This document shows, piece after piece, positions 1 through 24,196 of a stretch of DNA of 59,789 nt; the stretch's first letter is position 1, and each line of letters begins with the position of its first letter. Origin of the DNA: Brasilonema sp. CT11 (GTDB lineage: Bacteria > Cyanobacteriota > Cyanobacteriia > Cyanobacteriales > Nostocaceae); contig NZ_JABXYX010000040.1 in the NCBI RefSeq assembly GCF_017982655.1, positions 1 through 59,789 of the forward strand. The letters are read 5' to 3'. The notes beneath the pieces are model-generated. The model saw nothing but the letters and a program-made list of their open reading frames with translations. It made no database searches and had not been told where the DNA came from. Both the position numbers and the translations under genes were made by a program.

Positions 1-312
1 ATTCCCATTGTTCCGAAGTCAGGTCACTTGGGTATGATTTAGACATGGCTCTAGTAACGCTGTCGCATTTTTATCTACTGACAGAATACCGTTACTGGAG
101 CTTTTTTTGACTTTCCAAACATCCTCTTAGACTGATGTATTAATGCTGGTACTTTTTCTTTCTTCAAATAACGAGTAATGCGTCACCTATACATTTACAA
201 AATTTGCTTTAACCCTTGCAACGCAACTTTGACCCATGCCGAAGGTAGGAAATTCATGTTCATCTAGAAGGAGCAATATTAGATGCACAAACCATTTGTA
301 ATTTAAAGCAAA

Positions 313-339
313 AGGCGCATGAGTAATCCCCACACGCCT
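313..339 (-). terminator. possible weak terminator after the GG-leader peptide gene
   Basis: On the minus strand a short stem (AGGCG paired with CGCCT) is followed by TTTT about 65 bases past the stop of the peptide gene. The stem is only 5 bp with a long loop, so this is a weak call. Confidence 0.25.
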
Positions 340-403: not shown

Positions 404-682
404 TTAGCATCCTCCGCCTCCGCCTAGTGCAGAGCCTACTCCGCCTACTGCAGAGCCTACTCGGCTTACTACAGAGCCTACTCCGCTTACTACAGAGCCT
501 ACTCCGCTTACTACAGAGCCTAATCCGCCTACTACAGAGCCTAATCCGGTAGCGCAAGTTGGTGGTTTTACAGTTGGTACTCCGCAAGTTGGAGCGCATC
601 CACCCACTACAGTTGTTAAATCTTCATCACTGATTTCTTCGATTTGGTTAAATTGCAATTCAGAAATTTTGATGGTATCCAT
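404..682 (-). CDS. double-glycine leader peptide with a glycine/valine heptapeptide-repeat core (bacteriocin/RiPP-precursor-like)
   Basis: This 92-residue peptide has two parts. Residues 1-28 form an acidic, hydrophobic-patterned leader ending in SDEDLTTVVGG, the type of GG leader cut by C39 peptidase ABC exporters. Residues 29-92 are a possible core with three early cysteines (C29, C33, C43), then heptads close to GSVVSGV, then GGGGGC. Glycines spaced every seven residues make a small-residue zipper that could pack in a membrane. No modification enzyme or exporter adjoins it; the nearest ABC exporter with a C39-like domain is about 21 kb away. The start is ATG with only a weak AGGTTT upstream. 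What is seen: leader, GG and repeats. What is inferred: export and any antimicrobial or signalling role. A cell-surface repeat protein is the main alternative. Confidence 0.7.
   Translation of the reverse strand: MDTIKISELQFNQIEEISDEDLTTVVGGCAPTCGVPTVKPPTCATGLGSVVGGLGSVVSGVGSVVSGVGSVVSRVGSAVGGVGSALGGGGGC
431..551. repeat. 21-bp tandem repeat inside the GG-leader peptide gene
   Basis: Five full 21-bp units and a partial sixth start at 431, 452, 473, 494, 515 and 536. They differ at a few positions only. Read on the minus strand each unit encodes one seven-residue repeat (GSVVSGV-like), so unit gain or loss keeps the frame. Confidence 0.9.
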
Positions 683-1011: not shown

Positions 1012-1206
1012 TGTTTGACGATATCGCTTTCCTCCCTCAACAACGAGTATCTGACCCTGGCTGACCAGAGATTTTCTTTGGAAGAATTATGGCAATTGAA
1101 TCTGAATACTCTGAAAGCCACTTTCTTGGGAGAAGCAGAAAAAATGTCTACCGCGCTGAGTGGCAAGCGTTTTGACAGAATCTTTGAAGTTTGGGCTAAA
1201 GTGTAA
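1012..1206 (+). pseudogene. adenosine-deaminase-like C-terminal remnant
   Basis: The reading frame ending at 1206 encodes about 64 residues, including LNNEYLTLADQRFSLEELW and LNTLKATFLGEAEK. This resembles the C-terminal helices of adenosine/AMP deaminases, where a late EY..LA...FSLEEL segment is followed by a helix with SFLPEAEK-like sequence. The metal-binding and catalytic parts are absent, there is no good ATG, and the frame starts in AT-rich sequence. It is most simply a decayed fragment. The match is from memory of the family and is moderate; a small unrelated gene remains possible. Confidence 0.4.
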
Positions 1207-2027: not shown

Positions 2028-3020
2028 TTAAAACTGCCGCAAAAAGCGAAGGTCGCTTGCATAAAGGCGGCGAATATCATCAATTTGGTGTAAAACCATC
2101 GCAAAACGTTCTACACCAAAACCAGCGGCAAACCCAGTATAAACTTCTGGATCATACCCCACCGCTTTCAGTACATTTGGATCGACCATACCGCAACCCA
2201 TAACTTCCAACCAGCGACCATTCCACTGCAAGTCAACTTCAGCAGAAGGTTCTGTAAACGGGAAATAACTGGCGCGGAAGCGAATAGGTAACTCACCAAA
2301 CATGGCTTCCAAAAATATCTTAATGGTGCCTTTAAGATCAGTAAACGTCAGTCCTTCGTCAATTGCTAAAAGTTCTATTTGGTGGAAAACTGCTGAGTGA
2401 GTCGCATCTACGTTATCTCTCCGGTAGACTCGCCCTGGTGCAACAACTCGGATGGGGGGTTCCTCAGTTTCCATGTAACGAATTTGTACTGACGAGGTAT
2501 GAGTCCGCAGCAGATTCCCGTCTGGCAGGTAAAAAGTATCCTGCATATCACGGGCGGGGTGGTCGGGTGGGGTGTTCAGAGCTTCAAAATTGTAGTAATC
2601 TGTTTCCATCTCTGGTCCAGTAGCTACGGTATAGCCCAACCCGACAAAGATATCCAAAGCTTTGTCGATGATGTTATTGAGGGGATGAACACGACCTTGA
2701 GGACGGTAAATTCCTGGCATTGTTACATCCAATGTTTCAGCATCTAGCTGTGCCTGAATTTTCGCCCCTTCTAAGGTTGCACGTTGCTGATCTAGGCTGT
2801 TTTGCAAAGCTTCTTTGACTGTGTTGGCGATCGCCCCAATTTTTGGTCGTTCCTGGGCACTCAGTTGTCCCATACTCCGCAACAGCGCCCCAAGTTGACC
2901 TTTTTTCCCGAGGTAGCTGACTCTAAGTTCCTCCAGACGTTCTAGCGTATCAGCAGCGGCGATCGCTTTTTCTCCTTCCTCTCGCAGTTCTAAAAGTTGA
3001 GCCTCTAAACTGTTAGTCAT
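2028..3020 (-). CDS. pheS: phenylalanine--tRNA ligase alpha subunit
   Basis: This class II aminoacyl-tRNA synthetase subunit charges tRNA-Phe with phenylalanine as an alpha2beta2 enzyme with PheT. The 330 residues show an N-terminal coiled-coil tRNA-binding arm (about 1-85) and the catalytic core from about 95. Key motifs are [12 protein letters not shown], motif 2 around [28 protein letters not shown] and the motif 3 stretch [18 protein letters not shown]. Length matches the family. pheT is not in the window, which is usual for cyanobacteria where the two subunits are often unlinked. ATG 3020 gives the conserved N-terminus. Confidence 0.97.
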
Positions 3021-3324
3021 TAGTTTTTAGTCATTACACTATTCATTAGTCATAGATCCAAGGCTTTGGACTACTGGAGATATAACATATCGTTGACACC
3101 GTTATTCTGCCGTATGAAGAACTTGAATCGTCACAAGACAATTGATTTGTCAAAGACAATATTATAACCCAAACTTGTTTTTACCTGTTTGGCTGCTCTG
3201 TAAGCAAGCCAGAATCAGATTTACATAAGCTGTTATGCTGCTAAGCTTAAGTGGCGGGCAGTGGTTTAGAGTTAGGTTAAAGATAATCACTTTGACTAGT
3301 GTACGCAGAGGAGGTTTTGGCAGG

Positions 3325-3619
3325 ATGAAGACGCTGGAAGAAATTAGGCGATGGTTGATTCAGCACAAACCAGTGTTGCAGGAACGGTACAAAGTTAGCG
3401 AATTGGGTCTTTTCGGTTCCTATGCAAGAGAACAGCAGACTGAAACGAGTGATGTCGATGTGTTGGTAGAGTTCTCACCAAACACCTAGTTTGTTGAAGT
3501 TTGTCAATTTAGAAAACTATCTCTCAGACAACCTTGGAGTGAAGGTTGATTTGGTGCATAAAGCGGGACTAAAGCCGCGTATCGGAGAACGGATTTTGAC
3601 AGAAGTGGTCTATCTATGA
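3325..3619 (+). pseudogene. MNT-type minimal nucleotidyltransferase (antitoxin), frameshifted
   Basis: The protein starts at ATG 3325 behind a good AGAGGAGG site and shows the MntA motif GSYAREQQTETSDVDVLVEF, with the two metal-binding aspartates (the family is GSxAR...SDxD). It then hits TAG at 3487-3489. The rest of the family sequence continues one frame over from 3488 ([32 protein letters not shown]) to TGA 3617-3619. The break lies in CCAAACACCTAG, where loss of two bases from an AC run would explain it. MntA proteins AMPylate and silence their HEPN partner, so this antitoxin is probably inactive unless frameshifting rescues it. The last four bases overlap the HEPN start. Confidence 0.8.
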
Positions 3620-3915
3620 CCAAACGGCAATTGGAGGATTATTTACAAGATATATTAGATGCGATTAGCGCTATTGAGCAATTTACATCAAATATTGAGT
3701 TTACAACATTCTCACAAAACTTAGAAAAAGTCTTCGCGGTTTCAAGAGCCATTGAAATTATTGGTGAGGCGGTAAAACGGATACCTGATTCTGTGAGAAG
3801 CAAATATCCTGATATTCCTTGGAGAGATATTGCAGGAATGCGGGATAAGTTGATTCATGATTATTTCAATACAGATGTGGAAATTCTTTGGAAAGCTGTT
3901 CAGAATGTGTTTTAG
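3616..3915 (+). CDS. HEPN-domain toxin (HepT-like RNase)
   Basis: This 99-residue protein carries the HEPN active-site motif R-x4-H-x-Y in RDKLIHDYF, the hallmark of HepT-type RNases that pair with MNT nucleotidyltransferases. Its ATG overlaps the stop of the frameshifted MNT frame (ATGA), the usual coupled layout. The protein ends at KAVQNVF, about 10-15 residues before family members usually end, so the C-terminus is probably trimmed. With the MNT gene broken, either this toxin is also weak or the MNT half-domains still function. A 58-bp piece of this gene recurs at 4594-4651. Confidence 0.8.
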
Positions 3916-3966
3916 CTTAGTTTTGATTAATACGAATGTTTTCGAGAGCTTCAACTTCCAGCTATT

Positions 3967-4221
3967 ATGGACATAAGTAAATATCCCTGCCGACTTATGA
4001 ACTACCACGACATTATCACGATAGAACCTGGCAAACGCAGTGGTAAACCTTGCATTCGAGGAATGCGAATCACGGTGTATGACATATTGGAATATCTTGC
4101 AGGTGGTATGAGCCAAGAGGAGATTCTGGAAGACTTTTCTGAACTCACCTGTGAAGACATTAAAGCTTGTCTTGCTTTTGCCGCAGATCGTGAGAAAAGG
4201 TTATTCGTGGTATCTGTGTGA
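3967..4221 (+). CDS. DUF433 antitoxin-like protein
   Basis: The 84 residues match the DUF433 pattern: ITIEPGKRSGKPCIRGMRIT, then VYDILEYLAGGMSQEEILEDF and a final helix starting LTCEDIKACLAFAADRE. DUF433 proteins have a small winged-helix-like fold and are commonly encoded just before DUF5615 PIN-like toxins, as here, where the two genes overlap by four bases (GTGTGA). The role as antitoxin is inferred from this pairing. An internal ATG at 4000 (MNYHDIITIE) would give the usual family N-terminus and may be the true start. Confidence 0.8.
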   Translation: MDISKYPCRLMNYHDIITIEPGKRSGKPCIRGMRITVYDILEYLAGGMSQEEILEDFSELTCEDIKACLAFAADREKRLFVVSV

Positions 4222-4550
4222 AACTGCTTTTGGACGAAAACCTCTCTGACCGGATCATTCCTAGAATTACGGATCTGTATACTGACTCAGTGCACGTTAA
4301 AACATTAGCACTCATCGAAAGTGAAGATGTGTTGATTTGGGAATATGCCAAAGCAAATGATTTCGTGATTGTTTCCAAAGACTCTGATTTCCATCAACGT
4401 AGTCTTCTCTACGGTCATCCTCCAAAATTTATCTACCTTCGTGTCGGTAATTGTCCAACATCTAGAATCGTACAAATCTTGCGGGACAATTATGTCACGA
4501 TTAGTCAGTTTGGAAACGCACAGCAAGAAAGTATTCTGGTGTTAACTTGA
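4218..4550 (+). CDS. DUF5615 PIN-like toxin
   Basis: This 110-residue protein begins KLLLDENLS and contains VIVSKDSDFHQRSLLYG and PPKFIYLRVGN, the acidic motifs of the DUF5615/Mut7-C-like PIN family, believed to be nucleases. The start is GTG 4218, overlapping the DUF433 stop, so the two are translationally coupled. The pair is one of several toxin-antitoxin-type modules in the window and appears intact. Confidence 0.8.
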   Translation: MKLLLDENLSDRIIPRITDLYTDSVHVKTLALIESEDVLIWEYAKANDFVIVSKDSDFHQRSLLYGHPPKFIYLRVGNCPTSRIVQILRDNYVTISQFGNAQQESILVLT

Positions 4551-4551
4551 A

Positions 4552-4585
4552 GAGCGATCGCGCTAGACGAGGAACGCGATCGCTC
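4552..4585. terminator. hairpin built on HIP1 sequence after the DUF433/DUF5615 pair
   Basis: Perfect 11-bp arms GAGCGATCGCG (4552-4562) and CGCGATCGCTC (4575-4585) flank a 12-base loop directly after the DUF5615 stop. No T-run follows, so it may be a 3' stability element or simply two opposed HIP1 octamers. Confidence 0.5.
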
Positions 4586-4593
4586 ATAATAGA

Positions 4594-4651
4594 GTCTCAC
4601 AAAACTTAGAAAAAGTCTTCGCGGTTTTAAGAGCTGTTGAAATTATTGGTT
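4594..4651 (+). pseudogene. duplicated fragment of the HEPN gene
   Basis: These bases repeat the middle of the HEPN gene (about 3709-3766) with few changes: TCTCACAAAACTTAGAAAAA, the phrase TCTTCGCGGTTT, then GAAATTATTGGT. The copy has no start and soon meets a stop. It is a relic of a second HEPN copy or a short local duplication. Confidence 0.75.
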
Positions 4652-4708
4652 AAGCTGAGAGTTTCTGGTTAACTTGATAAGCAGCAGTTAGTAAATTCCC
4701 CTTCACGT

Positions 4709-5182
4709 ATGTCGTTGTCTGTAGAACAAGTCGAGAAGAGAATAAAAGAAATTGAGTGTCTCGTTGACTGCTCAAGTGAGCGATACGGGCGTTTACTCAA
4801 CTGGCAAAATCCATCTGACCCATTTTGGCATTATGGAATTGGTCTATCAGATACACATATTTTTGATACAGGTCGTGGGTTATGTCCTTTTGAGAGAAAA
4901 GAGGCAAAATTTGTTGCCGGTATTGACCACATTGCTTTTGAGCCAGAGCGAACAATTGAGCGGCTCAAACAAGCCCTTCATGTTTTTGCTGATTGGAAGT
5001 ACACTTTTCCTGGTTGGAATTGTGAACACCTTGGTCGGTTAATTGCGACAGATAAACCGAGATGTTATCAAAGTAAAGCTTTATGGTTCTTGTGTGACCT
5101 TACCCCAAAAGGCGACCACAAAACCGCACATCAAATGTTTCGAGCTTACCTAGAGAAGGTTGATCCTATTCTCAATCGGTAG
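4709..5182 (+). CDS. LRAT/NlpC-like domain protein of unknown role
   Basis: The 157-residue protein has FWHYGIGLSDTHIFDTGRG near residue 30-50 and GWNCEHLGRLIATDK near residue 108. A His in an HYGIGL-type strand and a later NCEH motif are the signature of the lecithin:retinol acyltransferase-like branch of the NlpC/P60 cysteine enzymes, where His and the NCEH cysteine form the catalytic centre. Bacterial members act as thiol acyltransferases or phospholipases, mostly uncharacterised. No signal peptide is visible, so it is likely cytoplasmic. It stands alone between toxin genes and pilB. The domain call rests on these two motifs. Confidence 0.6.
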   Translation: MSLSVEQVEKRIKEIECLVDCSSERYGRLLNWQNPSDPFWHYGIGLSDTHIFDTGRGLCPFERKEAKFVAGIDHIAFEPERTIERLKQALHVFADWKYTFPGWNCEHLGRLIATDKPRCYQSKALWFLCDLTPKGDHKTAHQMFRAYLEKVDPILNR

Positions 5183-5285
5183 TAATTTTATAAAAAATGT
5201 CTCAATTATTATCAGTGTAGATGTCAATTCTATCTCACAGATCGGGAATACTCTAATTAGAGTTTCCGTGACTAATTTCTCATAT

Positions 5286-7292
5286 ATGGCTCAGTCGTTA
5301 CCACAAAGGCGTAATACTGCTGTTACTGTAAGATCTCAGTTCTCGCCCTTTGGCAACAAATTAGTGCAATCTGGCTTTATCAATAGCGAACAGATGAGAC
5401 AAGCACTGATTGAAAGTCGTAAGTCTGGCAGATCTCTGACACAAGTGCTGGAATCTATTTCCGGACGACAGTTGTCACCAGAACTGTATAGGTTACATAA
5501 AAAGCAGCAGCTATTTGAACTCAAAATATTATACGGTGTTGAATCTCTTGATTTAGAGGTGAGTCAGGTTGGCACAACAAGAATGAGTCAACTGATTGAT
5601 ACCCTTATCCCAGTAGATATCTGTCGTCGCCATCACTTGGTACCACTAGCAAAGAATGCAGAGCAAAATCCGCCCTCAGTTTTGGTAGCGATGGTAGATC
5701 CGGATAATTTAGAGGCTTCGGATGACTTGAACCGCATCTTGCGTTTACAGGGATGGACATTGCAGCGGATGGTGATTACTCAAGAGGATTACCAGCAACT
5801 TATTAACCAATATTTGGATGAGGTGACTGTTCGGCAAAAGCACCTAGAACAAGAAAAGTTTACAGATATTAATCAGGATTTAGAAAATCTAGACAATCTC
5901 AATTTAGAGGATGTACCTGAAGATAAGGAAGCTGACTTAGGCGCAGCAATGAAGGGTGCTGAGGATGCCCCGATTATCAATTTAGTTAACAGAATCCTCG
6001 CAAAAGCACTACATGAGATGGTTTCTGATATTCATGTAGAACCACAGGAAGAAAACTTACTCATTCGTTTTCGTAAAGATGGTGTGCTGCGTCAGGCTTT
6101 CGATCCTCTGCCCAAAAAAATCATTCCTGCTGTGACAACTCGTTTCAAAATTATTGCCAATCTAGATATTGCTGAACGGCGTTTACCTCAAGATGGACGC
6201 ATCAGACGAGTGTTTGAGGGACGAAAGCTGGACTTCCGCGTTAGTACCTTGCCCAGTCGCTATGGGGAAAAAATCGTACTGCGGATTTTGGATAACTCTG
6301 CAACCCAATTGGGATTGGATCAGCTCATTACTGATGCAGAAACTTTGCAAATTGTCAAGGATATGGTCAGTCGTCCCTTTGGTTTGATTTTGGTGACTGG
6401 ACCGACTGGTTCTGGTAAAACAACAACCTTGTACTCGGCACTTTCGGAACTGAACTGTTCAGGTATCAATATTTGTACGGTGGAAGATCCAATTGAGTAC
6501 AGTTTACCTGGAATTACTCAAGTGCAGGTGATTCGGGAAAAAGGTCTGGATTTTGCGACAACTTTACGGGCTTTTTTGCGCCAAGATCCCGATGTGCTTT
6601 TGGTGGGTGAGACACGAGACAAGGAAACGGCGAAAACGGCAATTGAGGCAGCATTAACTGGTCACTTGGTTTTGACAACTTTGCATACGAATGATGCGCC
6701 GGGGGCGATCGCCCGTTTGGCAGAAATGGGCATTGAGTCTTTCACGATTTCTGGTTCTCTGATTGGTGTATTGGCACAGCGCTTAGTACGGCGTGTCTGT
6801 CCCAGTTGTTGCATTCCCTACACTCCCACCACAACAGAACTTGCTCGCTACGGTTTATCAGCAAGTCAACAAGTGGGTGTTACTTTTTATAAGGCAAATA
6901 CCTTAACTTTAGAGCAAATTAACCAAGCCAAGGCAAATAATCAGCTTTGCCCAGAGTGTCATGGTGTTGGCTACAAGGGACGTTGTGGTGTTTATGAAGT
7001 TATGCGAATCACAGAACGCCTGCAAGCCTTGATTACTGAAGACGCACCAACGGAACGCATCAAAGAAGTGGCGGTGGAAGAAGGAATGAAAACTCTACTG
7101 GCTTACAGTTTGGACTTAGTGCGTCAAGGTTACACCACTTTAGAAGAAGTCGAACGAGTCACGTTCACCGATACAGGTTTGGAAGCAGAGTTGAAAGCTA
7201 AACGTAAGATCAGTCTGACTTGTCGGACTTGTCATGCTGGACTGGAAGCCGAATGGCTACATTGTCCATACTGTATGACACCACGGTTTTAA
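5286..7292 (+). CDS. pilB: type IV pilus extension ATPase PilB (GspE family)
   Basis: PilB is the hexameric cytoplasmic ATPase that drives pilus polymerisation. From ATG 5286 the protein has 668 residues: an N-terminal MshEN-like domain, then the ATPase core with Walker A GPTGSGKTTT (about 370), Asp box, Walker B DVLLVGETRD (about 436) and His box ending TLHTNDAPGAIARLAEMGI. A CPSCC...CPECHG zinc site follows (about 504-560). A further CRTCH...CPYC ribbon at the C-terminus (644-662) appears to be an extra feature of this lineage. The frame is open upstream to 5160, but that part overlaps the LRAT-like gene; ATG 5286 begins the family-like sequence. pilT and pilC follow in the same direction. 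Confidence 0.93.
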   Translation: MAQSLPQRRNTAVTVRSQFSPFGNKLVQSGFINSEQMRQALIESRKSGRSLTQVLESISGRQLSPELYRLHKKQQLFELKILYGVESLDLEVSQVGTTRMSQLIDTLIPVDICRRHHLVPLAKNAEQNPPSVLVAMVDPDNLEASDDLNRILRLQGWTLQRMVITQEDYQQLINQYLDEVTVRQKHLEQEKFTDINQDLENLDNLNLEDVPEDKEADLGAAMKGAEDAPIINLVNRILAKALHEMVSDIHVEPQEENLLIRFRKDGVLRQAFDPLPKKIIPAVTTRFKIIANLDIAERRLPQDGRIRRVFEGRKLDFRVSTLPSRYGEKIVLRILDNSATQLGLDQLITDAETLQIVKDMVSRPFGLILVTGPTGSGKTTTLYSALSELNCSGINICTVEDPIEYSLPGITQVQVIREKGLDFATTLRAFLRQDPDVLLVGETRDKETAKTAIEAALTGHLVLTTLHTNDAPGAIARLAEMGIESFTISGSLIGVLAQRLVRRVCPSCCIPYTPTTTELARYGLSASQQVGVTFYKANTLTLEQINQAKANNQLCPECHGVGYKGRCGVYEVMRITERLQALITEDAPTERIKEVAVEEGMKTLLAYSLDLVRQGYTTLEEVERVTFTDTGLEAELKAKRKISLTCRTCHAGLEAEWLHCPYCMTPRF

Positions 7293-10989: not shown

Positions 10990-11673
10990 CTACTTAGAGG
11001 TTTTCACTTGATTTGCCATGTCTAAGAAAGAACTCATGTTCGCACCGGGACGACGACGACCATTGCTAGTATTAGGTACAGCAAGATATTTTGGTGCAAA
11101 AGTCGTTTCAGCTGGCTCCTTTTGAATTATTGCTTTGGCTTTTTGTGAGTTCACAGGCTCAGGCTTAGCACCAACTGAACCCTGTGTTAACTGAACATTA
11201 GGTCTTCCCTGAGCAGCAGCATCTTTTGTTCCATTGTTTGTGTCTGCTTGTTTTGGGGCAGGCTTAGGTGTTTTCTTAGCCTTGGGTGCGCCTGGTTTAA
11301 CGGCTTCTTGAGCCTTGGGTGCGGGTGGTTTAACGGCTTCTTGAGCCTTGGGTCCGCCTGGTTTAACAGCTTCTTGAGCCTTGGGTCCGCCTAGTTTAAC
11401 GGTTTGTTGAGGCTTGGATGTGAGTGGTTCAACGGCTTCTTGAGCTTTCGCGACTACTGATCCAACCGCTTCCTGAGCTTTCGATGTGACTGGTTCAACT
11501 GCTTCTTGAGCTTTCGATACTACCGATCCAACCGCTTCCTGAGCTTTCGATACTGCTTCTTTGGTTGCTTCGGCGGCTTCATCGAGTTCGAGGAAGTAGC
11601 CATTCTTGTTTCCAGCGAAAAGCCCCTTAAAGAAATTCACAATCCCATTGATTAAATTTTTGATAAAACCCAT
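10990..11673 (-). CDS. hypothetical protein with hendecad KAQEAV repeats
   Basis: This 227-residue protein begins with an amphipathic or hydrophobic helix (MGFIKNLINGIVNFFKGLF), then a GYFLELDEA motif. Nine units of an 11-residue repeat follow (about 40-140): early units read KAQEAVGSVVS, later ones KAQEAVKPGGP. Eleven-residue repeats of this kind form amphipathic helices in LEA-like and apolipoprotein-like proteins. The later proline/glycine-rich units would instead be flexible. The tail is basic and ends NMSSFLDMANQVKTSK. The N-terminal helix could anchor it to a membrane. I cannot name the function. It stands alone, divergent from the lipase gene downstream. Confidence 0.75.
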   Translation of the reverse strand: MGFIKNLINGIVNFFKGLFAGNKNGYFLELDEAAEATKEAVSKAQEAVGSVVSKAQEAVEPVTSKAQEAVGSVVAKAQEAVEPLTSKPQQTVKLGGPKAQEAVKPGGPKAQEAVKPPAPKAQEAVKPGAPKAKKTPKPAPKQADTNNGTKDAAAQGRPNVQLTQGSVGAKPEPVNSQKAKAIIQKEPAETTFAPKYLAVPNTSNGRRRPGANMSSFLDMANQVKTSK

Positions 11674-12859: not shown

Positions 12860-13321
12860 TTAAAGGCGATGCTCCACCAGAAGGCTCCCTGCTGGAGCAT
12901 CGCCAATTTGGGTATACTCAGCACTCCCAAAAATTGCTTCAGGATAACGGTAATACTTTAACTCCATTAAGTTATAAAAAGGGTCTTCTAAAAAGAAAGT
13001 GCGATGTTCTAGGGCAGAACCAACAAAGCGGTGTTTCGGTTCTTCCCTAAAAAGGAGTTGTCGCTGTTGCGCCCTTGCGAGTAAGTTCTCCCAATCATGT
13101 TCTAAAGTAAAAATTAGCCCAAAGTGTCTTGGGTATATCCCGCGTTGGGGTGTAAGTGGTTCTTTTGTGACGTGAGCTACCAGTTGATGACCGTAGAGAT
13201 TGAGAATTAGGGCGTTGCGGTTTTCCCGTCCAGGAGTGCAGCCTAAACCATCGACATAATATGCTTTTGTCTGGGCAATGTCTGTGACAGGAAAAGCAAG
13301 ATGGAATAACGTTTGGTTCAT
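12860..13321 (-). CDS. VOC-family (glyoxalase-like) protein, copy 1
   Basis: The 153 residues form a glyoxalase/bleomycin-resistance fold: FHLAFPVTDIAQTKAYYVDG at the start, then paired beta-alpha-beta modules with HFGLIFTLEHDWENL, HRTFFLEDPFYNLMELKYY. VOC proteins are metal enzymes or binding proteins; the substrate is unknown. A nearly identical second copy lies at 17872-18423; the difference lies mainly in the last residues. The C-terminus runs over a hairpin repeat (12866-12903), so the tail GDAPAGSLLVEHRL is encoded by that repeat. Confidence 0.85.
   Translation of the reverse strand: MNQTLFHLAFPVTDIAQTKAYYVDGLGCTPGRENRNALILNLYGHQLVAHVTKEPLTPQRGIYPRHFGLIFTLEHDWENLLARAQQRQLLFREEPKHRFVGSALEHRTFFLEDPFYNLMELKYYRYPEAIFGSAEYTQIGDAPAGSLLVEHRL
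12866..12903. repeat. hairpin repeat at the end of VOC copy 1
   Basis: Arms GCGATGCTCCA (12866-12876) and TGGAGCATCGC (12893-12903) are perfectly complementary around a 16-base loop. The hairpin overlaps the last codons of the VOC gene and could also aid termination. Confidence 0.7.
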
Positions 13322-17871: not shown

Positions 17872-18423
17872 CTAATACCCCGGTGACACGGGCTGCGATG
17901 GCGTAAGCGCAAGCGCACGCCAAGGGCTAACGCGTAGCCTGTCTGGAGGACTCAGCGGGCGCTCTGCGCCATCGCCCACCAGAAGGCTCCCTGCTGGAGC
18001 ATCGCCAATTTGCGTATACTCAGCACTCCCAAAAATTGCTTCAGGATAACGGTAATACTTCAACTCCATTAAGTTGTAAAAAGGGTCTTCTAAAAAGAAA
18101 GTGCGATGTTCTAGGGCACAACCAACAAAGCGATGTTTAGGTTCTTCTTTAAAAAGGAGTTGTCGCTGTTGCGCCCTCGTGAGTAAATCCTCCCAATCAT
18201 CTTCTAAAGTAAAAATTAGTCCAAAGTGTCTTGGGTATATCCCGCGTTGGGGTGTGAGTGGTTCTTTTGTGACGTGAGCTACCAGTTGATGACCGTAGAG
18301 ATTGAGAATTAGGGCGTTGCGGTTTTCCCGTCCAGGAGTGCAGCCTAAACCATCCACATAATATGCTTTTGTCTGGGCAATGTCTGTGACGGGAAAGGCA
18401 AGATGAAATAACGTTTGGTTCAT
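17872..18423 (-). CDS. VOC-family protein, copy 2, with repeat-derived C-terminal tail
   Basis: The first 149 residues are nearly the same as copy 1 (12860-13321); differences include HDWENLLARA versus DDWEDLLTRA. After GDAPAGSLLV the frame runs on for about 34 residues (GDGAERPLSPPDRLRVSPWR and beyond) encoded by the palindromic repeat at 17889-17976, where copy 1 stops after five residues. The longer tail has no family counterpart. Confidence 0.8.
   Translation of the reverse strand: MNQTLFHLAFPVTDIAQTKAYYVDGLGCTPGRENRNALILNLYGHQLVAHVTKEPLTPQRGIYPRHFGLIFTLEDDWEDLLTRAQQRQLLFKEEPKHRFVGCALEHRTFFLEDPFYNLMELKYYRYPEAIFGSAEYTQIGDAPAGSLLVGDGAERPLSPPDRLRVSPWRALALTPSQPVSPGY
17889..17976. repeat. small palindromic element with inverted ends
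   Basis: The ends GCGATGGCG and CGCCATCGC are inverted copies. The middle has GCGTAGCCTGTC and AGGACTCAGCGG, a core shared with 51214-51310 and 56684-56712. The element encodes the tail of VOC copy 2. Confidence 0.7.
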
Positions 18424-21430: not shown

Positions 21431-24196
21431 TCAAATATTTGCCTGCTGCCGTTGATACAATGACCAGTACAAACCTTTTTGCCGCAACAAATCCAAATGG
21501 TTTCCACGTTCAGCGAGAACGCCCTTCTCCAGTACCAAAATTAAATCAGCACGCTTGAGGGGGGCGAAACGGTGGGCGATCAGAAACACGGTGCGGTTAG
21601 CGGAAACTTTTTGTAGGTTTTCCAAGACTTGCTGTTCTGTCTCACTATCTAAAGCACTGGTTGCTTCGTCCAAAATTAAAATCGGTGCTTGCGAGAGAAA
21701 TAATCGTGCCAAAGCTATGCGTTGACGTTGTCCCCCAGATAAAGCTGTGCCCCGTTCTCCGACATTGGTTTCGTAGCCGTGGGGTAATTCACTGATAAAG
21801 TCATGAGCAACAGCATATCTTGCAGCTTCTACGACTTGTTCTGAGGTGATGTCGGGATTACCGAGAGTTATATTGTCTAAGATAGAACCGTTGAATAAAA
21901 AGTCTTCTTGCAGAACTACACCAATTTGTTGGCGCAGCGAAGCTAAATCAGCGCTTTTAATATCGAAACCATCAATGAGGATGCGTCCTGATTCAATTTG
22001 ATAAAGACGTTGCAAAACTTTGGAAAGAGTACTTTTGCCAGAACCACTGCGTCCAACAACACCAACAAACTGTCCTGGTTCTACAGAAAAGGAGATTCCT
22101 CTTAAGACGGGTTCAGCGCTTTGTCGGTAGCGGAAGAAAACTTGCTCAAAGTTAACTTGACCTTTGAGGGATGGTAACACTAAACCAGTGCCTGGTTCCG
22201 CTTCTGGGGCTACGTTAAGAATATCACCAATCCGGTCAACAGAAAGCAGCACTTGTTGGAAGGTTTGCCAAAGCTGTACGAGGCGTAAAAGTGGTGCTGT
22301 GACTCTACCTGAAAGCATTTGAAATGCTACTAATTGACCGACTGTTAATTTATGATCAATAACAAGCTTGGCTCCAAACCAAAGAATAAGCAAGTTGGAA
22401 AAGTTGGTGAGGAAGTCACCAATATTGCTACTAATGTTAGAGGTGGTAGAAGCTTTGAAACCTGTGCGGACGAAGCGAGCAAATAAACCTTCCCAGCGAT
22501 CGCGTGCTGCTGGTTCTGCTGCGTGTGCTTTAACTGAGTGAATTCCGGTAATTGTCTCGACAAGAAATGATTGACTATCAGCACTGCGGTTAAAAGTTTC
22601 GTTTAGCCAGTTGCGGAGAATTGGCGTTGCTACCACTGTTAAAGTGGCAAACAAGGGCAGAACTGCTAACGCCACAAATGTCAGGGGGATATTGTAGTAA
22701 AACATTAACCCCAAATACACGACAGCAAAGATGCTATCCAAAACCACAGTTAACGCCGTACCTGTGAGAAACTGGCGGATTTGTTCCAGTTCTTGAACTC
22801 GTGCGACTGTATCTCCTACCCGCCGAGACTCAAAATAAGCCAAGGGTAACCGCATCAGGTGACGAAACAGCTGTGCTGATAAACTTAAATCTAGGCGACG
22901 GGCGGTATGGGTAAAAATGAACAGTCGCAGGATACCAAGAACTGCCTCAAATATTGAGGTTAGCAGGAGTGCGATCGCCATAACATCAAGAGTTGGCAAA
23001 CTCTCCTGCACCATCACCTTATCAATAACGACTTGAGTAATCAGTGGTGTTGTTAACCCCAAAAGCTGCAATGTAAAAGACGCCAGCAGTACTTCTGCGA
23101 GTAATCCTCGGTACTGCCAAACTGCTGGAGTGAACCAATTGAGGTTGAATTTTTCTTGCTTTTGGATGACTTCTACTTGCCATAACTGCCCATCCCAAGT
23201 TTCTTCAACCACTGATCGTGGTATGGTTTGACAAGTGTGATTGGGATTTAAGGGATTTGCGACAGTTAGGCGATCGCCCTTGAGGGCATACGCGACTATC
23301 CAACCTTCCTCTGTTTTTCCTGATGTTTTCCACCGTAACAAAGCTGGAAATGATAACTGTTGTAACTCACTCCAACTGACTTGCAGCCGTCGCAGCACAA
23401 AACCTAACTTTTCTGCTGCTTCTACAAGATGTTTTGGTTGTTGTCCTCGCAGTTGACGTTGTACCCATTCGAGTTGTACAGCATTGTCTAGCTGTTGCGC
23501 CACCATTGTTAAACACGCAGCACCCGTGTTCCAACTAGAGACGAAGGGGTATGTTGACGATTGTGTGGAGGAGGGGGAGACAAGGAGAGGAGAGTGAGGG
23601 GGTGAGTTAGATGAGGCAGAGTCTTCTAATTTGGAATTTGGAATTTGGAGAGAAGTTGGAACGGAGGAAACCTCCGTTAGCGCAGCGTCTTTGGAGGAGA
23701 CTCCAATCTTCGCTGATTTTGAATTGTCTTGTTCTGTTATCCCCGCGTCTTGTTGATTCCCTAACCAAAACCCTTCAATTTGTGGCGTTGAAAGTTCTGC
23801 CCATACTGCTGTCGTCCAGCGTAGTACGACGACTTCTTTACTAGCAGCAACAGCCTTGCACTCCACAGAAAAGTTGTTTAAGTCGCCGAACCAATCTCCT
23901 GGTTGTAGTACTGTCAAAGTCTTACCGACGCTTCCGTCCCGCAAGCGGATGTTTCCAGAAATAATCAAGAATTGGAAACCTCCTGCTTCTTGTGGCCAGA
24001 TTTTTTCTCCCAATTTGTAGCGAAGAGTTTCTGACACCTTTTGCAGTCGGTTTTGTTGTTCAGCTGTTAGCCAGCACAGTGGTGGTTGATTCCAAGATAA
24101 AGATGCTAGCACGCTATTTTCTGAAGATTCGTCACCTAAAAGTTTTAATTCACCTGCAATTTTACCGTTAGTTTTTGAATTTTCTCTGCTAGCCAT
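21431..24196 (-). CDS. peptide/protein ABC exporter with cNMP-like domain and degenerate C39 domain
   Basis: This 921-residue half-transporter has four parts: a cyclic-nucleotide-binding-like fold (about 55-135, LQPGDWFGDLNNFS); a variable linker (150-215); a C39 peptidase-like domain (215-345); and the ABC membrane and ATPase domains. The ATPase has Walker A GRSGSGKST, signature LSGGQRQR and Walker B ILILDEATSALD. In the C39 part, the catalytic Cys of the (D/E)CGxAC motif is T224 (NTGAACL), the His position is W299 (EGWIVAY) and the Asp position is N314 (VANP). It should bind but not cut leaders, as in type I RTX exporters. It overlaps the end of the PpiC-type gene by 52 bases on the same strand. 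No HlyD partner is nearby. Confidence 0.9.
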   Translation of the reverse strand: MASRENSKTNGKIAGELKLLGDESSENSVLASLSWNQPPLCWLTAEQQNRLQKVSETLRYKLGEKIWPQEAGGFQFLIISGNIRLRDGSVGKTLTVLQPGDWFGDLNNFSVECKAVAASKEVVVLRWTTAVWAELSTPQIEGFWLGNQQDAGITEQDNSKSAKIGVSSKDAALTEVSSVPTSLQIPNSKLEDSASSNSPPHSPLLVSPSSTQSSTYPFVSSWNTGAACLTMVAQQLDNAVQLEWVQRQLRGQQPKHLVEAAEKLGFVLRRLQVSWSELQQLSFPALLRWKTSGKTEEGWIVAYALKGDRLTVANPLNPNHTCQTIPRSVVEETWDGQLWQVEVIQKQEKFNLNWFTPAVWQYRGLLAEVLLASFTLQLLGLTTPLITQVVIDKVMVQESLPTLDVMAIALLLTSIFEAVLGILRLFIFTHTARRLDLSLSAQLFRHLMRLPLAYFESRRVGDTVARVQELEQIRQFLTGTALTVVLDSIFAVVYLGLMFYYNIPLTFVALAVLPLFATLTVVATPILRNWLNETFNRSADSQSFLVETITGIHSVKAHAAEPAARDRWEGLFARFVRTGFKASTTSNISSNIGDFLTNFSNLLILWFGAKLVIDHKLTVGQLVAFQMLSGRVTAPLLRLVQLWQTFQQVLLSVDRIGDILNVAPEAEPGTGLVLPSLKGQVNFEQVFFRYRQSAEPVLRGISFSVEPGQFVGVVGRSGSGKSTLSKVLQRLYQIESGRILIDGFDIKSADLASLRQQIGVVLQEDFLFNGSILDNITLGNPDITSEQVVEAARYAVAHDFISELPHGYETNVGERGTALSGGQRQRIALARLFLSQAPILILDEATSALDSETEQQVLENLQKVSANRTVFLIAHRFAPLKRADLILVLEKGVLAERGNHLDLLRQKGLYWSLYQRQQANI
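23606..23710. repeat. repeat-derived linker inside the exporter gene
   Basis: TTGGAATTTGGAATTTGGAG and GGAGGAAACCTCCGTTAGCG with its facing half TGGAGGAGACTCCA lie in the linker between the cNMP-like and C39-like domains, in frame. The type matches the repeats in rsmE and menD. Confidence 0.6.

Follow-up and report, generated by a model that had tools for sequence, protein, structure and literature searches.

The contig analysed here carries, close to one of its ends, a small gene whose product joins a double-glycine (GG) leader to a core made of seven-residue repeats. This raises the question of whether the gene encodes a secreted peptide, and of what kind, or whether it is a relic or by-product of repetitive DNA. 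The window, by which we mean the whole stretch of DNA that was analysed, is the complete contig C298 (59,789 bp) of a genome of 8.79 Mb in 411 contigs. The gene and its parts are arranged as follows:

404-682, minus strand: precursor gene of 92 codons, with its ATG at 682 and a TAA stop at 404-406
599-682, minus strand: double-glycine leader MDTIKISELQFNQIEEISDEDLTTVVGG, 28 residues, matched by the leader HMM, with a putative C39 cut after residue 28
548-598, minus strand: N-terminal core segment CAPTCGVPTVKPPTCAT, 17 residues, Pro-rich with three Cys, as read from the sequence
418-548, minus strand: 21-bp tandem array of 6.2 copies encoding six heptads (TRF, codon layout, shuffles)
past the array down to 407, minus strand: final Gly and Cys codons
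366-400, minus strand: 3' flank in common with the G193a homologue (block 73-107 at 86%; alignment and folds)

The core of the product, CAPTCGVPTVKPPTCATGLGSVVGGLGSVVSGVGSVVSGVGSVVSRVGSAVGGVGSALGGGGGC, contains the heptads GLGSVVG, GLGSVVS, GVGSVVS, GVGSVVS, RVGSAVG and GVGSALG in this order, followed by a GGGGC tail, and its cysteines lie at core positions 1, 5, 15 and 64. TRF placed the array at 418-548 with a period of 21, 6.2 copies and 93% matches, and the self-similarity of the core was best at a lag of 7, with a score of 137 that was equalled in none of 1000 shuffles. A preliminary description of this DNA had reported seven-residue units encoded by 21-bp DNA repeats, as well as three N-terminal cysteines and one at the C-terminus, and both statements hold. 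The observation of an intact open reading frame (ORF) with a GG leader, a heptad core and four cysteines is confirmed and goes beyond chance. According to the codon layout, all codon differences between the heptad units are non-synonymous and none is synonymous, a pattern compatible with an array that expanded recently, without any indication that the repeat as such is under selection. Further frames are open across the array (plus strand, 319-552; minus strand, 375-599), as 21 is a multiple of 3; among the frames over the array, only that of 404-682 carries the leader. Slippage may change the length of the core in frame, as the preliminary description had suggested.

The leader was scored with a hidden Markov model based on an alignment of 12 leaders and rebuilt without the window row. 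In this leave-one-out setting it reached 51.4 bits (E 3.2e-15), the best of 1000 shuffled leaders obtaining 4.9 bits, and the 404-682 ORF ranked first among the 516 ORFs of the window, with a runner-up at 5.7 bits. The 12-row model, window row included, found the leader family in 161 of the 217 genomes of the taxonomic family at E <= 0.01. The assignment as a double-glycine leader, made initially by inspection, is thereby borne out, and the separate leader search that had been proposed returned homologous leaders in which the GG is kept. Judged by its sequence, the leader genuinely belongs to a large known cyanobacterial double-glycine family. Of the features by which such precursors are recognised, a conserved GG leader, a small ORF and a variable core are present at 404-682.

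Besides that of the window, 102 distinct leader/core pairs were found, with leaders that are alike and cores that are diverse. Their cores contain no cysteine in 75 cases, one in 16, two in 10 and four in a single case. Six of the 102 are internally repetitive (p <= 0.01 by shuffling), with motifs that differ from those of the window. Repetitive cores were seen in the GG precursors L181 (9133-9381, minus strand; HSGGY.. units), L146 (8027-8260, minus strand; PPEAPE..) and L185 (9384-9644, plus strand; NS-N.. units). In G001, a genome of the same genus as the window, four GG precursors stand in tandem in L212 (1501-3067), their leaders almost the same (ELQDELNDADLM..GG), and the leader of one relative matches a Nostoc plasmid.

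The closest relative at the DNA level is a gene of genome G193 (L145, 8434-8649), which has a leader 79% identical to that of the window and a 3' flank in common with it, and a different core. Together with L146 (8027-8260), L092 (8053-8307) and L147 (8061-8228), it makes up a set of G193 paralogues whose leaders are close to the window's and whose cores have neither window-type heptads nor cysteines. The window and G193a leaders differ at 8 of their 17 synonymous sites and at 8 of the 67 non-synonymous ones (dS 0.73, dN 0.13; Fisher p 0.003). These values fit a leader that has been constrained since the split from G193, on at least one of the two lineages. Among named families, the bacteriocin-type signal TIGR01847 (NCBIfam) scored 12.4 bits for the window, under its curated cut-off of 15.7, and 17.8 bits for G193a, over it. 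Bacteriocin_IIc (Pfam PF10439), with a gathering score of 27.1, scored 8.4 bits for the window and 26.5 for G193a, just short of the threshold. We counted the pass of the G193a relative for TIGR01847 and its near match to Bacteriocin_IIc in favour of a bacteriocin-like product. Nitrile-hydratase-like or Nif11-like leaders (NHLP, N11P) were absent among the NCBIfam and Pfam matches up to E 10. The shared flank forms, in G193a, part of one arm of a strong hairpin 3' of the gene (z -4.96); a hairpin of this type is not predicted in the window flank (fold z -0.09).

The gene lies at a rearranged spot, the landmarks of which are:

1-127, no strand assigned: end of a multicopy insertion-sequence-like element, inside which the contig stops (copies in the own genome)
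131-293, plus strand: 5' remnant of an adenosine deaminase gene, comprising an upstream stretch and about 115 first coding bases (83% to G006, 81% to G005)
313-339, minus strand: terminator-like stem-loop, 64 bases past the stop codon (1 against 0.7 +/- 0.8 in shuffles)
1035-1187, plus strand: 3' remnant of the adenosine deaminase gene, its last ~150 bases (comparison with relatives)

Between the two remnants, 741 bp (294-1034) that include the peptide gene replace the middle of the deaminase gene. The latter is open in G005 and G006, where it precedes a GNAT gene (Pfam A_deaminase for G006). In G002 and G003 it is nearly lost, and a RecQ-type helicase gene (family assigned in G003) abuts its last remnant. 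The element at 1-127 occurs at 12 other places in the own genome, two of them identical over the 127 bp, and in L223 a copy (77%) lies next to an ORF for a DDE transposase. The stem-loop is not beyond chance, and no promoter-like site for the gene was found on its strand. A link of the peptide to the neighbouring GNAT gene was considered and rejected, GNAT being conserved in G002, G003, G005 and G006 without a full-length match to the peptide. Elsewhere in the window, a 227-aa protein (10990-11673, minus strand) consists in part of 11-residue KAQEAV-type tandem repeats and has no Pfam match at E 0.001, and two minus-strand ORFs 5 kb apart (12860-13321 and 17872-18423) share nearly the same N-terminus (MNQTLFHLAFPVTDIAQTKAYY...), an apparent duplication.

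Double-glycine leaders are processed by peptidase-containing ABC exporters (PCATs) with a C39 peptidase domain. No intact C39 exporter is present in the window, whose contig ends 403 bp beyond the gene. A single C39 ABC protein was detected there (21431-24196, minus strand). It reads NTGAACL where DCGAACL is expected; with its catalytic Cys absent, it belongs to the C39-like kind, and a link of the peptide to this exporter was rejected for the same reason. This type I exporter also has a stretch resembling a cyclic-nucleotide-binding domain, at a score below the Pfam cut-off, and its best match, 64% identical, is on a plasmid of Calothrix brevissima. Together with the Nostoc plasmid matched by a relative's leader, this suggests a Nostoc-group cyanobacterium as the source. 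The whole genome gave 14 C39 matches, 9 of them with the catalytic Cys motif, and encodes catalytically plausible PCATs, with long-type C39 exporters in four ORFs outside the window, on contigs C119, C348, C333 and C211.

We then surveyed the surroundings of leader-family genes in 49 stretches, each 7-19 kb long, comprising nine early picks (four from G193) and 40 taken down the leader-match list, mostly one per genome. An intact-Cys C39 PCAT was found in 26 of the 49 neighbourhoods, against a chance expectation of about 2% if other genomes are as dense in such sites as the own one (9 sites in 8.79 Mb). For all 26, the best match in the own genome was one of the long-type exporters L053, L054 and L055, at 70-85%. 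An 81% PCAT fragment truncated by the end of the G085 stretch was left out of the count. When the stretches were split by a spacing rule, intact PCATs occurred in 20 of the 25 with only long, acidic-insert leaders and in 6 of the 24 with a window-type leader. Long-type PCATs thus accompany the leader family as a whole, whereas genes with a window-type leader mostly lie at a distance from such an exporter. The low share among window-type leaders suggests that the 404-682 gene is probably served by a distant exporter.

We next considered the core itself. The helical hydrophobic moment of the heptads peaks at 101.5 degrees, and only 32 of the 5040 orders of the seven heptad positions equal it, some of these being rotations of one order. 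AlphaFold, run without an alignment, placed a helix of 42 residues at 45-86 with low confidence (mean pLDDT 57), and the 19-residue maximum of hydropathy in the core was 1.67. By its hydrophobic moment, the heptad favours a helix with valines along one face. The preliminary description had further held that the glycine spacing suits membrane packing, a claim that fared less well. GxxxG occurs 4 times in the core, against 5.1 in shuffles, so that the strict zipper is not enriched, and on this count a strict glycine zipper was discarded. Small-xxx-small patterns are in excess (21 against 14.7 by shuffling; 3 of 2000 shuffles), an enrichment that is absent from the related-looking core in G180.

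That core belongs to a precursor of genome G180 (L025/L195; C1289:6136-6402) and has the same VVxGxGx heptad as the window. The two cores align without gaps in the same heptad register with a score of 95, the best of 2000 shuffles reaching 84; part of this score reflects the shared period, as shuffling destroys periodicity. The hydrophobic moment of L025 peaks at 102 degrees, with 64 of 5040 orders as good. Unlike the window gene, L025 has the leader ELTDADLMAINGG, a Cys-free core and diversified units. Third codon positions agree in 16 of 50 cases between the two cores, which points to convergence at the protein level, and the likeness of the heptads is likely to be convergent. L025 lies close to the same two conserved genes as L002, a short-core precursor of the own genome.

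Is the core related to anything else? NCBIfam and Pfam searches gave no named family for it above cut-off, in agreement with what the preliminary description had said of this exact core. A search of the 217 family genomes with the core gave matches in 70 at E <= 0.05. Full-protein searches at family and order level returned leader homologues and low-complexity DNA among the matches read. Thirteen match loci from these searches (12 places, L035 and L095 overlapping) were read as DNA; seven were 7-bp repeat DNA and six 21-bp minisatellites, and stops interrupted the matched frame in 7 of the 13. The 21-bp minisatellites in other family genomes include the match regions of L026, L028, L033, L095 and L050, and in the first four of these one frame gives a similar apolar-Gly/Asn heptad. 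Order-wide, 2 of 388 genomes matched at E <= 1e-4, the own genome and G368, and the G368 match was dismissed as 7-bp repeat DNA carrying stops. The protein had no match in phage, plasmid and viral collections, and none of full length among the 6 remaining genomes of the genus. A sub-cut-off match of residues 8-46 (EISDEDLTTV...) to methyl-coenzyme M reductase gamma, without any enzyme context, was put down to chance, and 11 archaeal loci of the wide search probably represent the same kind of chance match. Homologues were found for the leader only, and by these searches the core appears to be an orphan.

Outside the family, the core was matched best by L020 from a Clostridia MAG (68% over residues 42-81), which is the antisense of a PETTEPA-type Thr/Glu/Pro tail in a surface-type protein of 993 aa. 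The protein is encoded at 2639-5620 (minus strand) of that locus, and its antisense reading at 2763-3080 (plus strand), GVGSVVSGVGSVVS, nearly reproduces the window's core. Across the 14 loci read as DNA, we met no large protein carrying the core in sense. The opposite strand of the window's own array reads as LTTEPTP units, in a plus frame (408-725) that begins directly behind the stop at 405-407; no ATG, GTG or TTG occurs in it until its last 18 codons. In G030, a similar Gly/Val reading resembles, by eye, the complement of a Pro/Thr/Glu-rich one. As Thr/Glu/Pro repeat DNA yields the Gly/Val/Ser heptad when read antisense, heptad wording can arise without selection, and for this reason the helical pattern says less about selection than it seems to. 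The heptad may have its origin in repeat DNA of this type.

Taking these results together, we consider it probable that the gene encodes the precursor of an apolar peptide that is exported by a PCAT and is either bacteriocin-like or retained at the cell surface; that the product is a secreted double-glycine peptide, of whatever function, is very probable. Recognition of the leader by a PCAT, cleavage after the GG motif and export are established for PCATs in general (PMC10986499; PMC6363468), and we propose the same steps here on that basis. The leader would dock on the C39 peptidase domain of an exporter, most likely among the four long-type PCATs that the own genome encodes outside the window. 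This exporter would cleave after Gly28 and export a 64-residue peptide (5.5 kDa) with Cys29 as its first residue. Outside the cytoplasm, the four cysteines would be able to pair. The six heptads would fold into a single apolar helix, valines lining one side and Gly/Ser the other, that would self-associate and bind or enter membranes, and a product behaving in this way would most likely be bacteriocin-like or held at the cell surface. A membrane-active or self-assembling helix is a plausible role for the core, if somewhat short of probable, while antibacterial activity of the peptide is possible but doubtful.

We place this bacteriocin-like or surface-held peptide first, matrix building second and a relic third. 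For matrix building, the peptide would be exported in the same manner but, as EbfG1-3 do, would assemble into fibres or sheets within the sheath or biofilm instead of killing. The EbfG1-4 proteins are GG peptides with a described role, being needed for biofilm formation, and EbfG1-3 are amyloid (PMC4997328, PMC9981879); a repeat core with cysteines at its ends would suit polymerisation, and the six repetitive cores among the 102 others show that such architecture is not confined to this gene. Matrix building is nevertheless unlikely, given that the periodicity of the hydrophobic moment favours a helix over beta structure, that a single gene without a visible operon is present, and that mature EbfG1-4 were reported to have no homologues in other cyanobacteria. 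A relic, that is, a precursor gene brought in by rearrangement, whose core drifted to a slippage-prone minisatellite and whose expression or function was lost, is suggested by the rearranged spot, the decayed flank and the 6 further genomes of the genus, none of which has a full-length match. It would also agree with the position of the gene inside a broken adenosine deaminase gene and beside an IS end, with the missing prediction of the G193a 3' hairpin although one arm is common to both, with unit differences that are all non-synonymous, and with 21-bp minisatellites at five other family places read, four of them with related wording. We regard it as decidedly unlikely in view of the intact ORF, the in-frame array and the constraint on the leader since the G193 split, although that constraint could lie on the other lineage.

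A class II lanthipeptide-like RiPP, in which Cys and Ser/Thr of the core would be cross-linked before export by a synthetase encoded elsewhere, would account for four core cysteines where 75 of the 102 other cores have none. Weak sub-cut-off matches to lantibiotic families point in the same direction, as does a match to a G070 precursor (43% over residues 14-57, E 0.007) that is adjoined by a LanM (DUF4135 and LANC_like) and a C39 PCAT. However, the similarity of the Cys segment to this LanM-linked precursor was equalled in 495 of 5000 shuffles, and by eye no modification enzyme was recognised among the visible neighbours, leaving a lanthipeptide quite improbable. In the G070 locus (L225, 3625-9452), LanM is split into two adjacent ORFs, with the C39 PCAT and the GG precursor, core CTTCGNPLHTPIIKC, adjoining. 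Finally, the array could be, or descend from, plus-strand DNA for a Thr/Glu/Pro tail (LTTEPTP), with the minus-strand heptads as a by-product. The antisense match of L020 and the complementary look of the G030 readings argue for this, but the plus frame is not open before the stop at its beginning and offers a start codon only in its last 18 codons, whereas the leader in the minus frame matches its family model at 51 bits and shows signs of constraint. A mere by-product is highly improbable on this evidence; descent of the array from Thr/Glu/Pro DNA that was later read in the leader frame would also be compatible with the exported apolar peptide.

A more specific form of the exported-peptide reading, improbable when all its parts are required at once, is a 'stapled heptad rod'. 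The PCAT-exported peptide would have its length set by the number of 21-bp repeats and would link to itself or to partners through cysteines at both ends, building up an apolar helix that can be extended, either at the cell surface or within target membranes. The G180 heptad would be of independent origin, and that of the window gene may go back to the antisense of Thr/Glu/Pro DNA. If true, the heptad would be a module taken up repeatedly by the double-glycine route.

Double-glycine peptides abound in cyanobacteria; their leaders are shared, their cores vary, and a function is known for few of them. The core described here is simple enough to be synthesised in graded repeat numbers, a defined type of exporter offers itself for testing and an apparent parallel exists in a second precursor, so that the peptide could reveal if apolar cores made of repeats serve to act on membranes or to form matrix. 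Should it prove inert, it would be a good example of the birth and decay of such cores beside mobile elements.

Among known systems, the nearest in kind are the cyanobacterial double-glycine precursors of 28-164 aa with C39 PCAT clusters described by Wang, Fewer and Sivonen in 2011 (PMC3140520). As far as the accessible text of that paper goes, the window gene resembles them in its GG leader, small size, hypervariable core with abundant Gly, Cys, Ser and Thr, phylum, and a leader family linked to long-type PCATs, and differs from them in its tandem-heptad core and in having no visible cluster around it; the words 'repeat' and 'glycine zipper' are absent from that text. At the level of titles and the beginnings of abstracts, our literature search met no heptad-repeat GG peptide. 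The EbfG1-4 proteins of Synechococcus elongatus, required for biofilms and secreted via PteB (PMC4997328), are likewise small secreted GG-motif proteins (precursors of about 9-10 kDa) with a C39 transporter, a likeness drawn from their description. Unlike the window gene, they are encoded by four neighbouring genes in one operon, and EbfG1-3 form amyloid (PMC9981879). The CdzC/CdzD pair of Caulobacter crescentus (PMC5380434) offers a likeness in the way of working, as small, apolar, Gly-rich bacteriocins with a leader that are secreted by a type I system and held at the surface. The Cdz system differs in its extended GxxxG zippers, RTX-like N-terminal regions, CdzAB/CdzI neighbours and use of two peptides; by eye, no Cdz-like type I secretion or immunity genes were recognised on the visible side of the window gene, the contig ending on the other. 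The 404-682 product belongs to the known double-glycine class, and what is new in it is an orphan, repeat-built core with four cysteines.
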